From Borrelia coriaceae (GTDB taxonomy: Bacteria; Spirochaetota; Spirochaetia; Borreliales; Borreliaceae), in NCBI RefSeq assembly GCF_023035295.1, contig NZ_CP075084.1, positions 1-20,414 of the forward strand: a DNA stretch of 20,414 bases. The letters run 5' to 3'. The notes beneath the pieces were generated by a model. The model was not told the origin of the DNA and did no database searches. It saw nothing but the letters and a program-made list of their open reading frames with translations. Position numbers and translations under genes: made by a program. This document shows, piece after piece, positions 8,661 to 20,414 of this stretch (positions are counted from its first letter, which is position 1; each line of letters opens with the position of its first letter).

Positions 8661-9749
8661 TTATTTTTTAGATTCAGGAATATTTTTATCAGAAGTTACA
8701 GAAGTAGCCTCAGGATTAATTTTCATAGCTTCTTTAACTTCCTTAAGTCCTGCATCAATTGTCTTCCTTATTGCAATAGTTAATGTATTTAGTACCTTAG
8801 TTACTGCACTTACTGCTGCTCCTTTAACTGTATTAGCAACATCAATATTAGCAGTACTGTTATCATTAGCAAATTTACCACCTTTAGCCATTGCTCTTAA
8901 CGCTATAGCCCCTGCTATAGTTGCATCATTTTTACTAACCATACCAGTAACTGCAGTGTCAACTTTATGCTCAGCCAACTTAGCTGACTCACCATTTTCT
9001 TTAACCATAGCTTGTAAGATATCAGCACCTGTTACTGCCCCAACGGCCTTAGATGCATCAGCTGCTGCCTTATCTGCATTAGCAGCAATAGCACCTTGAT
9101 TACCAGAACTACCAAAAAGCTTTACCACATCACTAGAATTAGCGTCACGATCACTAGCAAGAGCATCAGCCTTTTTACCAGTACCAGCATCAGCACTTCC
9201 TTTATCTTTAAGTACTATGTCTACAATTGACTTAATTCCCTTTACTAAATTTTCAATATCTTTACCTTTAACTCCAGCCCCATCAGTATTACTACCACCT
9301 TTAGCAACATTAGCAATTGGTTCACTAGCATCGTTGCCAATAGCACCACTAGCAATCTCAGCTCCTTCTATTATCTTACTAAGCTTATCATCAATGAATG
9401 TTTTAACTGAAGCACTTACAGCTTCTGCATTAGGATTACCCTTATCTTTCATATCAGCAACAATTTTCTCAAGAGCTGTCTTAGTAGAAGAAACAGTATC
9501 ATGAACGCTCTTAAAGTACTTACCAACCTCAGACTTTGGAGTTTTAGTATTAAACCCTAAAACACCGCCAAGTGTGTCGCCAAAAGAAGTAAAACTATCT
9601 AAGAAGTCATTACCTAAATTAGCAAGTGAGGATAAGAAAGTATTTCTCTTCTCAAGTTCTTCTATCCCATTATTACAAGCAAGGAAAAGAGAAATAAATA
9701 ATGTTGCACAAATACTTTTTAATCTAATATTTTTAATATTTATTTTCAT
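8661..9749 (-). CDS. vlp: Vlp, hybrid copy of a tandem duplication
   Basis: This intact 362-residue Vlp has the lipobox FLAC and the GGVLGFN body (NLGNDFLDSFTSFGDTLGG). From the lipobox region onward the protein equals that of 9895-10983. Its leader, signal peptide and first 45 codons equal those of 7457-8515. It is therefore a chimera: the start of one neighbour joined to the body of the other. The variable middle includes IANVAKGGSNTDGAGVKG and a VDTAVTGMVSKNDAT stretch. The tail is TSVTSDKNIPESKK. AAAGGAGG lies 10 bases upstream. It probably arose by unequal crossover, and it adds gene dosage without adding an antigen type. Confidence 0.94.
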   Translation of the reverse strand: MKINIKNIRLKSICATLFISLFLACNNGIEELEKRNTFLSSLANLGNDFLDSFTSFGDTLGGVLGFNTKTPKSEVGKYFKSVHDTVSSTKTALEKIVADMKDKGNPNAEAVSASVKTFIDDKLSKIIEGAEIASGAIGNDASEPIANVAKGGSNTDGAGVKGKDIENLVKGIKSIVDIVLKDKGSADAGTGKKADALASDRDANSSDVVKLFGSSGNQGAIAANADKAAADASKAVGAVTGADILQAMVKENGESAKLAEHKVDTAVTGMVSKNDATIAGAIALRAMAKGGKFANDNSTANIDVANTVKGAAVSAVTKVLNTLTIAIRKTIDAGLKEVKEAMKINPEATSVTSDKNIPESKK

Positions 9750-9894: not shown

Positions 9895-10983
9895 TTATTT
9901 TTTAGATTCAGGAATATTTTTATCAGAAGTTACAGAAGTAGCCTCAGGATTAATTTTCATAGCTTCTTTAACTTCCTTAAGTCCTGCATCAATTGTCTTC
10001 CTTATTGCAATAGTTAATGTATTTAGTACCTTAGTTACTGCACTTACTGCTGCTCCTTTAACTGTATTAGCAACATCAATATTAGCAGTACTGTTATCAT
10101 TAGCAAATTTACCACCTTTAGCCATTGCTCTTAACGCTATAGCCCCTGCTATAGTTGCATCATTTTTACTAACCATACCAGTAACTGCAGTGTCAACTTT
10201 ATGCTCAGCCAACTTAGCTGACTCACCATTTTCTTTAACCATAGCTTGTAAGATATCAGCACCTGTTACTGCCCCAACGGCCTTAGATGCATCAGCTGCT
10301 GCCTTATCTGCATTAGCAGCAATAGCACCTTGATTACCAGAACTACCAAAAAGCTTTACCACATCACTAGAATTAGCGTCACGATCACTAGCAAGAGCAT
10401 CAGCCTTTTTACCAGTACCAGCATCAGCACTTCCTTTATCTTTAAGTACTATGTCTACAATTGACTTAATTCCCTTTACTAAATTTTCAATATCTTTACC
10501 TTTAACTCCAGCCCCATCAGTATTACTACCACCTTTAGCAACATTAGCAATTGGTTCACTAGCATCGTTGCCAATAGCACCACTAGCAATCTCAGCTCCT
10601 TCTATTATCTTACTAAGCTTATCATCAATGAATGTTTTAACTGAAGCACTTACAGCTTCTGCATTAGGATTACCCTTATCTTTCATATCAGCAACAATTT
10701 TCTCAAGAGCTGTCTTAGTAGAAGAAACAGTATCATGAACGCTCTTAAAGTACTTACCAACCTCAGACTTTGGAGTTTTAGTATTAAACCCTAAAACACC
10801 GCCAAGTGTGTCGCCAAAAGAAGTAAAACTATCTAAGAAGTCATTACCTAAATTAGCAAGTGAGGATAAGAAAGTATTTCTCTTCTCAAGTTCTTCTATT
10901 CCATTATTACAAGAAAGGAATAGAGAGATAAATAATGTTGCACAAATTCTTTTTACCTTAATATTTTTAATATTTATTTTCAT
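9895..10983 (-). CDS. vlp: Vlp, parental copy of the duplicated body
   Basis: This 362-residue Vlp is identical to 8661-9749 except within the signal peptide. Here it reads KVKRICATLFISLFLSC instead of the neighbour's RLKSICATLFISLFLAC. It is likely the original owner of the duplicated body. Its leader has lost about 16 bases relative to the neighbour, removing AAAGGAGG and leaving only AAGGG near the same position, so translation from its own site should be weak. This would not matter for a silent cassette, which needs only the homologous 5' coding sequence to be copied into the expression site. The spacer downstream is the duplicate of 8516-8660. Confidence 0.94.
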   Translation of the reverse strand: MKINIKNIKVKRICATLFISLFLSCNNGIEELEKRNTFLSSLANLGNDFLDSFTSFGDTLGGVLGFNTKTPKSEVGKYFKSVHDTVSSTKTALEKIVADMKDKGNPNAEAVSASVKTFIDDKLSKIIEGAEIASGAIGNDASEPIANVAKGGSNTDGAGVKGKDIENLVKGIKSIVDIVLKDKGSADAGTGKKADALASDRDANSSDVVKLFGSSGNQGAIAANADKAAADASKAVGAVTGADILQAMVKENGESAKLAEHKVDTAVTGMVSKNDATIAGAIALRAMAKGGKFANDNSTANIDVANTVKGAAVSAVTKVLNTLTIAIRKTIDAGLKEVKEAMKINPEATSVTSDKNIPESKK

Positions 10984-19503: not shown

Positions 19504-20064
19504 TTACTTAATCAAAAAAGAGTAAATAATTCCAATTAAAGTTAAAAAAATACCTGTACATAGGCCAATTAAGGTTCCAAGCATCCAATTGTGTAATTTT
19601 AGTGTACTTTTAAGTTCCATTTTGTTTTTATCAATTTTATTATCAAGTTCATTAAATTTAGTATCAATTTTTACATTGAGATTGTTTTCTACGATATTAA
19701 TTTTATTGTTTAAGTTATTTTCAACAGTATCAATTTTATTATCAAGCTCGTTAAATTTGTTATCAATTTTATTATCAAGCTCGTTAAATTTGTTATCAAT
19801 TTTATTGTCAAGTTCAGTTTTGACAGCTTTAATTTCGGACTGTAAACTTGCTTCTATCTTTTGAATTTCGGATTGTAGTAGTGCCTCAACTTTTTCAAGT
19901 TTAAGGTTAAAATTAGTTTCTAGATATTCAAGGTCTTTATGAGTAAGTTCATTACGATAATACCTATAAGATAAATCGTCGGCTATATCTCTGTTAATTC
20001 CGGCTTTAATAAGTTCATTTAAGACCATTTGTCTTGTAATTCCTATTGTTTGGGGAAGTCCCAT
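19504..20064 (-). CDS. bdr: Bdr-family repeat membrane protein
   Basis: This intact 186-residue Bdr protein has AAGGAG (20071-20076) 6 bases before its ATG. Residues 1-50 are the conserved head (GITRQMVLNELIKAGINRD, IADDLSYRYYRNELTHKDLE). Residues about 55-150 are a repeat-rich coiled coil with tandem copies of the 11-residue DNKIDNKFNEL unit and related VENNLN units. A membrane helix lies at about 161-183 (MLGTLIGLCTGIFLTLIGII). Bdr proteins are multi-copy, size-variable, membrane-associated Borrelia proteins of unsettled function, encoded on many plasmids. This copy points inward from the right telomere. A truncated relative lies near the left end at 1464-1775. Confidence 0.93.
   Translation of the reverse strand: MGLPQTIGITRQMVLNELIKAGINRDIADDLSYRYYRNELTHKDLEYLETNFNLKLEKVEALLQSEIQKIEASLQSEIKAVKTELDNKIDNKFNELDNKIDNKFNELDNKIDTVENNLNNKINIVENNLNVKIDTKFNELDNKIDKNKMELKSTLKLHNWMLGTLIGLCTGIFLTLIGIIYSFLIK
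19741..19806. repeat. 33-bp perfect tandem repeat in bdr
   Basis: Two identical 33-bp units (19741-19773 and 19774-19806) are followed by a diverging third. Each encodes 11 residues (unit DNKIDNKFNEL), so copy-number change keeps the frame. This is the usual source of Bdr size variation. Confidence 0.9.
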
Positions 20065-20202
20065 AATAATCTCCTTAATATATTATACAGTATTTCAAGA
20101 GATGATTGAATGAGTTTTTTGTACTATTTGATATTAAGAAGTAATTTTGTTAGGATTTATTTTGAATTAGTCAGAGGTAGATCTATTTATAGAAAAAAAT
20201 AT

Positions 20203-20382
20203 CAACTTTGGTATATTTTAAGTGCAACTATTGTATATTTTTGAGGCAACTATGTTCATTTTAGGTGCAACTCGTAAAAATAAAAAATGTTAATAGACAA
20301 CTTTGTTCATTTTCATGGCAACTATGTATAAAAATGAGGTAACTATGTTTTTATTTGAGGAAACTTTGTTCATTATTATTGG
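20203..20382. repeat. subtelomeric 21-bp degenerate repeat array
   Basis: Eight units begin near 20203, 20225, 20247, 20268, 20298, 20319, 20340 and 20361. The consensus is approximately CAACTATGTTCATTTTAGGT. The last four, and the third, have a period of exactly 21 bp; the fourth is stretched to 30 bp. The array ends 12 bases before the telomere box 3 motif. It lies upstream of bdr and has no ORF that I would believe. Confidence 0.85.
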
Positions 20383-20389
20383 CCAAACA

Positions 20390-20414
20390 CTTCTATACTA
20401 AAAACAAATTATAT
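20390..20414. other. right hairpin telomere motif (putative)
   Basis: Read inward from the end on the minus strand, TATAAT occupies positions 2-7 (20413-20408) and TTAGTATA positions 14-21 (20401-20394). This is the box 1/box 3 layout of Borrelia hairpin telomeres that ResT recognises. The following GAAGTGTTTGG also resembles remembered Borrelia subtelomeric sequence. Confidence 0.8.

Follow-up and report, generated by a model that had tools for sequence, protein, structure and literature searches.

A spacing-constrained array of 21-bp repeats beside Borrelia plasmid telomeres, a possible accessory platform for telomere proteins

A degenerate array of AACT boxes at the ends of Borrelia plasmids belongs to the telomere and not to the neighbouring bdr gene, and alignment of its copies indicates that its spacing is constrained while its letters drift. 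The proposal that it serves as a telomere-anchored, spacing-constrained accessory platform for telomere proteins is, in our judgement, evenly balanced between right and wrong; the alternatives are weighed below with the evidence that bears on each.

The window analysed is the whole of contig C9 (20,414 bp) from a relapsing-fever-type Borrelia genome (G000, hereafter the source genome). Eight AACT boxes lie at its right end (C9R; Table 1), with steps of 22, 22, 21, 30, 21, 21 and 21 bp between them, and the array extends from ~54 bp from the tip inward to ~212 bp. The array is real and beyond chance. AACT occurs eight times in positions 20179–20395, a count reached by none of 5000 dinucleotide shuffles, and six of these are followed by a second AACT 20–22 bp on, which again none of 5000 shuffles equalled. 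The lag-21 autocorrelation is weaker evidence than the AACT counts: at 0.403 it exceeds the shuffle average of 0.305 but not the highest shuffle value, 0.413. Box 3 (TACTA, reading outward) is found near the tip at C9R, as in Borrelia hairpin telomeres. Box 1 and Box 3 are the names used for Borrelia telomeres in the accessible text of PMC6945570 and PMC4370689.

Table 1 Features at the right end (C9R) of the 20,414-bp window
Feature	Position	Strand	Details	Basis
Array unit 8, counted from the telomere	20203–20224	+	22 bp; box AACTTT at 20204	
Array unit 7, counted from the telomere	20225–20246	+	22 bp; box AACTAT at 20226	
Array unit 6, counted from the telomere	20247–20267	+	21 bp; box AACTAT at 20248	
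Array unit 5, long unit	20268–20297	+	30 bp; box AACTCG at 20269	
Array unit 4	20298–20318	+	21 bp; box at 20299; 97 bp from Box 3	
Array unit 3	20319–20339	+	21 bp; box at 20320; 76 bp from Box 3	
Array unit 2	20340–20360	+	21 bp; box at 20341; 55 bp from Box 3	
Array unit 1, telomere-adjacent	20361–20381	+	box at 20362; 34 bp from Box 3	
Putative hairpin telomere	20382–20414	+	Box 3 TACTA at 20396–20400; Box 1-like TATAAT (reverse strand) at the tip	
PF-88 gene, apparent broken remnant between bdr and array	~20120–20160	−	INPNKITS and NYFLISNST in two frames	By eye against the PF-88 alignment
bdr gene, directed away from the telomere	19504–20064	−	186 aa; start codon at 20064	

A sequence-only reading of this DNA had reported eight units at 20203–20382 abutting the telomere motif; both the coordinates and the count are correct, and the hairpin telomere does follow directly, with its Box 3 starting at 20396. 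Its regular 21-bp spacing applies to most units, at 21–22 bp, and fails at the one unit of 30 bp. The left end of the same plasmid (C9L) is indeed without an array (lag-21 z −0.5). That reading also raised two ways in which the array might dissolve, as fragments of a protein-coding gene or as something absent from other telomere-proximal regions. Stops are present in all six frames of 20203–20382, which rules out coding repeats as the nature of the array, and arrays were found at other ends. Elsewhere in the window, two vlp genes (8661–9749 and 9895–10983) encode near-identical proteins whose main difference is the signal peptide.

In the source genome, blastn placed the array region at 13 sites. 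Eleven are contig ends with a full array; at the other two ends, one of them the right end of the chromosome, the last unit alone is present. The arrays occupy at least ten different contigs; some are at left ends, and C12 carries one at both ends. A three-box AACTNT pattern matched 39 times, all 39 directed outward and no further than 215 bp from a contig end, whereas the same pattern reversed, as a control, matched eight times. When 36 genomes were scanned, internal chromosomal sites also matched outside the source genome, for example a recurrent AACTCTCTATAGTAAT site, and the clean 39 of 39 is therefore valid for the source genome only. Besides these arrays (family A), pattern searching turned up family B, a diverged set of arrays, at C11R, C17L, C20R and C22R, and a third repeat type, with GTATACTTA boxes ~21 bp apart, adjoins a third subtype of the subtelomeric PF-88 gene at C10L, C19R and C22L. 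Two of the family B ends (C11R and C22R), together with C10R, C13L, C23L, C15R and C19L, also carry a subtelomeric gene family of ~230–250 aa (MLK...VRVKDWKTNFNNL) directed away from the tip.

Treating C2–C6 as circular, as inferred from their lack of Box 3 and from ends that fall within genes, leaves 38 linear ends in the source genome, 35 of which have Box 3 in their last 45 bp. An AACT lies 33–35 bp from Box 3 at 18 of the 35, where base composition (0.0060 per bp) would give fewer than one such end. The other 17 have no array, the left end of the chromosome among them. Since this is about half of the telomeres, the array is dispensable for a working telomere as such; minimal ResT substrates, likewise, function without it. 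A separate G-rich telomere class carries a G-quadruplex motif (such as GGGAGTTGGGGGATGTTGAGGGGGGGGGAGATAATGGG) 75–81 bp from the contig end at C11L, C17R, C18L, C21L and C24L, that is, at five of the 38 linear ends, with none in the remaining 2250 bp of those ends.

Among plasmids at large, blastn matched the array region in 27 records, all of them Borrelia, and in seven of the 61 genomes searched, the source genome counted. In G015 and G018, which have no PF-88 match, the array was absent from the two telomere-bearing ends inspected (L213 and L214), a small sample. Inside B. miyamotoi lp72 (L154, about 1250–1530), a putative fossil telomere has the array alongside it, which reads as a sign of end-to-end plasmid fusion. 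Other repeats and sequences were seen at contig ends in passing. The left end of G014 C6 (L209, 1–300) has telomere-adjacent 21-bp units with a different box (GCAACAAG...), and five contig ends of G017 (L123, L140, L142, L144 and L145) carry sequences like CCAGCACACTGGCGGCCG, which to our eye resemble cloning-vector polylinker that stayed in the assembly.

The boxes keep a register with Box 3. Beyond the four proximal boxes, whose distances (Table 1) are common to families A and B, both families have boxes at 127/128, 148/149 and 170 bp, and family A has an extra one at 192 bp; the two families share this register while differing in the sequence that separates box from Box 3. Several relapsing-fever relatives also have their proximal boxes at about 34, 55, 76 and 97 bp. 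At 19 of 19 loci from four relatives, picked by similarity, the first AACT lies 32–35 bp from Box 3 (34 bp in 16 loci; 32, 33 and 35 bp once each). The distance nevertheless changes with lineage, from the usual 34 bp to 30 bp in B. duttonii (L139), 24 bp in Lyme lp28-4 and lp17 (L146 and L151, where the box is AAAGTT and the distance comes from alignment by unit) and 19 bp in B. turcica (L205). These values refute a single helical phase relative to Box 3 for every lineage.

More general than the distance is the layout, in which ~21-bp boxes run toward the telomere, with four proximal boxes 21 bp apart followed by a step of 30 or 31 bp, about three turns, and then further boxes. It was found in the window, at family A and B ends, and in B. 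duttonii L139, B. turcica L205 (one proximal step being 22 bp) and Lyme lp28-4 L146. Of the six Lyme ends with a complete telomere, the layout is complete at L146 alone, with four boxes at L151 and fewer or broken boxes at the rest. Several B31 ends whose assembly stops short of Box 3 have the 30-bp unit too, and the Lyme arrays differ in unit number. The long unit 5 measures 20, 28, 30 or 31 bp in relatives; the 20-bp form, shorter by about one turn, is that of the A-type ends of B. turicatae, B. parkeri and B. puertoricensis.

Comparison of arrays with their own flanks points to constraint on spacing. Eight of the 11 A ends were compared after the near-identical C19L, C20L and C21R were dropped, giving 28 pairs that are not independent of one another. 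Gap columns per 100 bp came to 1.0 in the array and 14.2 in the adjoining 115-bp flank, a 14-fold difference, and identity fell from 0.94 in boxes through 0.87 in spacers to 0.80 in the flank. The pairings of C18R with C9R, C12L, C12R, C13R and C16R are the most telling in this respect: spacers (0.75–0.78) and flank (0.77–0.83) have diverged to similar levels, with no gap columns in the array against 22–30 in the flank. Between families A and B, 60 unit pairs gave an identity of 0.88 for boxes and 0.46 for spacers, with 0.32 expected by chance. Box positions in 15 arrays fall largely on one helical face, with a mean resultant of 0.89 at 10.5 bp per turn, compared with 0.38 at 10.0 and 0.29 at 11.0. 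The weak cases are Lyme lp28-4 (0.63) and C8L (0.59), whose 28-bp long unit moves the inner boxes off the shared face. The helically phased, telomere-tied platform suggested by the sequence-only reading gains support here, from the scarcity of gaps as from the 39 matches at contig ends and the register with Box 3.

The same data bear on whether the array is a functionless relic of an old tandem duplication that spread with telomeres through end exchange. Such a history would fit the persistence of array-less ends (17 of 35), the remnants of one or two boxes at C1R, C23R, C10R and C23L, and the variable unit number of Lyme arrays. A relic should not, however, show gaps so much scarcer than in its own flank at similar substitution levels, boxes better conserved than spacers between the families, or a layout common to distant lineages, and we regard this explanation as quite improbable.

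The array is also predicted to be curved. Bending was modelled over the last 200 bp before the tip with a wedge model. The predicted bend was 161–206 degrees for the 11 A ends, 118–138 for three B ends and 114–119 for the three GTATACTTA ends; 400 segments of the window averaged 58 degrees with a maximum of 153, and nine G-rich ends gave 8–80. Thus, A ends exceed all 400 window segments, and B and GTATACTTA ends stay below the window maximum. Dinucleotide shuffles matched the predicted bend in 0 to 1.3% of trials (eight arrays), and arrays with permuted units did so in 0 to 13.5% (ten arrays). Because permuted-unit arrays sometimes equal the observed value, part of the predicted bend is a by-product of the 21-bp periodicity.

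The genes next to the array argue further for its association with the telomere. The sequence-only reading placed the array upstream of bdr, which is true at C9R, with an apparent PF-88 remnant in between; this scrap was missed by tblastn at E 1e-3. Its suggestion of a bdr regulator site did not hold up, as bdr is the nearest ORF (at least 80 aa, directed away from the telomere) at just five of 15 array ends (C9R, C12R, C16R, C18R and C20L), where its distance from the tip is 350 to 916 bp. Relatives carry PF-88, a named gene family, behind the array; it encodes ~267 aa and is directed away from the telomere. PF-88 matched 177 plasmid records by tblastn, all Borrelia or Borreliella. At L163, the right end of G020 C15 in a B31-like genome, bdr lies beside PF-88, as at relapsing-fever ends.

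That the array might be the upstream regulatory region of PF-88 or bdr, telomeric only because the gene is subtelomeric, is unlikely. In 57 of 60 records sampled evenly from the 177, the PF-88 match reads inward and starts less than 1 kb from the record end, and at C13R the PF-88 start is ~35 bp away from the array. Moreover, PF-88 subtypes go with array types: A-linked members are 69–79% identical across species and B-linked members 70%, whereas A and B members share 44–50% (the row Ly_B31C15R, a Bdr ORF, was left out). Linkage alone would give the same match. The state of the gene itself speaks against regulation. By tblastn, PF-88 is intact at one of the 11 A ends (C13R), in pieces at C8L, C18R and C20L, and not detected at the other seven, and all eleven keep the array. 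Conversely, among four internal PF-88 genes, L152 and L153 have neither array nor telomere, L158 has two boxes, and L154 has an array together with its fossil telomere. These internal cases and the rarity of intact PF-88 at the A ends of the source genome indicate that the array tracks the telomere more than the gene. In addition, promoter-like sites in 19900–20414 number four where 3.7 are expected by chance, in a scan confined to sigma-70, and on the puertoricensis lp39 plasmid the nearest annotated gene is directed toward the telomere.

The PF-88 product is predicted to have a ResT-type fold that lacks the catalytic arginine. For two intact members, the predicted structures match that of the ResT catalytic domain, with middling pLDDT values of 77 and 72. 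R199 of ResT is catalytic; at the motif-I position of this arginine (ATGRRP in ResT), the aligned stretch of PF-88 (ASGI-P) has no arginine in any of 12 members. PF-88 also has no counterpart of the ResT N-terminal domain. In profile and sequence searches, the PF-88 profile matched ResT with a low probability of 4.2%, Pfam PF16684 matched ResT alone in the source genome and not PF-88, no resolvase family appeared among the Pfam matches of the 12 members, and no significant hit to the PF-88 profile was obtained among PDB sequences. A likeness of the C-terminal part of PF-88 to the ResT C-terminal domain, suspected by eye, scored 8.3 by profile, with shuffled controls reaching 15.7.

Plasmid ends are known to be exchanged in this genus, and the array could be a recombination handle for such exchange, for instance in vmp switching by whole-end replacement. 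At the A-type ends of the source genome, telomere-anchored similarity reaches 219 to 2499 bp inward. Near-identical plasmid ends and replacement of long segments up to the telomere are described for B. miyamotoi in the available text of PMC12510640, and swapped 3′ ends are described for B. venezuelensis in that of PMC10580987. Yet homologous exchange requires identity rather than helical spacing, and it is spacing that the array keeps while its letters drift. Furthermore, on lpE27, the vmp-expression plasmid of B. hermsii, the vsp-side end is a G-rich telomere that lacks the array. We consider a recombination handle unlikely.

Iterons typically consist of direct repeats at a distance of two helical turns, which favours reading the array as a plasmid replication or partition site of this kind. 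The distribution of the array makes this very improbable. The same array on ten or more contigs of one genome, and on both ends of C12, would be expected to cause incompatibility, and replication and partition genes are internal in annotated relatives. The segregation role entertained by the sequence-only reading is unlikely for the same reason, namely that many plasmids of one cell share the array.

We return to the accessory platform for telomere proteins, for which we infer protein binding, the identity of the protein and the function of the array. With boxes spaced at two helical turns, one three-turn step beyond the fourth box, and a set distance to the Box 3 of ResT, the array would present its boxes along one side of ~180 bp of DNA that is predicted to be curved. 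Several copies of a DNA-binding protein could be loaded on this one DNA face, and the protein-loaded array might then fold the plasmid end into a compact complex. Such a complex could control or shield the hairpin end by positioning or restraining ResT at the replicated telomere, by excluding nucleases, or both. Restraint of ResT, aid to ResT, shielding of the hairpin and pairing of ends may all be compatible with the sequence alike.

A candidate for the bound protein would be the PF-88 product with its predicted ResT-type fold. According to the available text of PMC12624138, the telomere resolvase TelN of phage N15 protects hairpin ends against Mre11-Rad50, and since it does so without catalysis, PF-88 becomes an interesting candidate. 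In its most specific form, the accessory-platform proposal would have PF-88, as a catalytically dead relative of the resolvase, sit on the curved, phased array, cap the plasmid end and govern the access of ResT and nucleases, with array and protein subtypes having co-diversified. We put this version forward as a speculation and think it rather unlikely.

Apart from the resolvase site, little is known of the organisation and protection of hairpin ends in Borrelia, bacteria with many linear replicons. The array, common to relapsing-fever and some Lyme species, would be a specific DNA target for finding bacterial telomere-associated proteins, and the predicted dead resolvase beside it would be a first candidate for such a protein. 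The array also bears on plasmid-end exchange in antigenic variation.

The boxes so far described for Borrelia telomeres lie within ~40 bp of the tip. As the ResT substrate, they share place, orientation and host with the array, which is counted from Box 3; the array, in contrast, begins only beyond them and runs far further inward. The DHS of B. hermsii, a 214-bp element with a 31-bp inverted repeat after vmp genes (PMC6011951, in its accessible part), resembles the array in being extragenic, repeated and telomere-proximal on relapsing-fever plasmids. However, the array consists of direct repeats, and the absence of a phased AACT array from the expression-site telomere at the right end of lpE27 leads us to reject their identity. 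Compared with the DHS by description, 20081–20414 contains imperfect short inverted repeats only.

Iterons and recombinase accessory sequences are likewise phased direct repeats that load protein on one DNA face, and they serve as our working analogy. Plasmid iterons are plasmid-specific and stand beside an initiator gene, whereas the array occurs at the telomeres of many plasmids in one cell and replication genes are internal in relatives, so it is very probably not a plasmid iteron. By analogy with TelN, a resolvase-like fold without the catalytic arginine, encoded beside telomeres, would suit a TelN-like protection. In the available text of PMC12624138, TelN protection requires both its N-terminal and its catalytic parts, and it is the counterpart of the ResT N-terminal part that PF-88 lacks.

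A related feature has already been mentioned in passing. Imperfect 21-bp repeats centred near bp 100 of lp17 were recorded in two Lyme strains (Casjens 2018, PMC5870499), and they share the period and place of the array, with units that are likewise degenerate. The verdict of the sequence-only reading that no named feature fits holds in the literature searched, apart from this passing mention. In the accessible part of PMC5870499, the lp17 repeats figure as a repeat-number indel only, without the Box 3 register, the shared layout, the relapsing-fever occurrence or a function; an account of the array's register, layout and relapsing-fever occurrence was likewise not met in the literature searched, which omits much older and subscription telomere work. 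A fuller telomere analysis by others is announced in the available text of PMC12958805. The lp17 repeats are very probably the Lyme version of the array.
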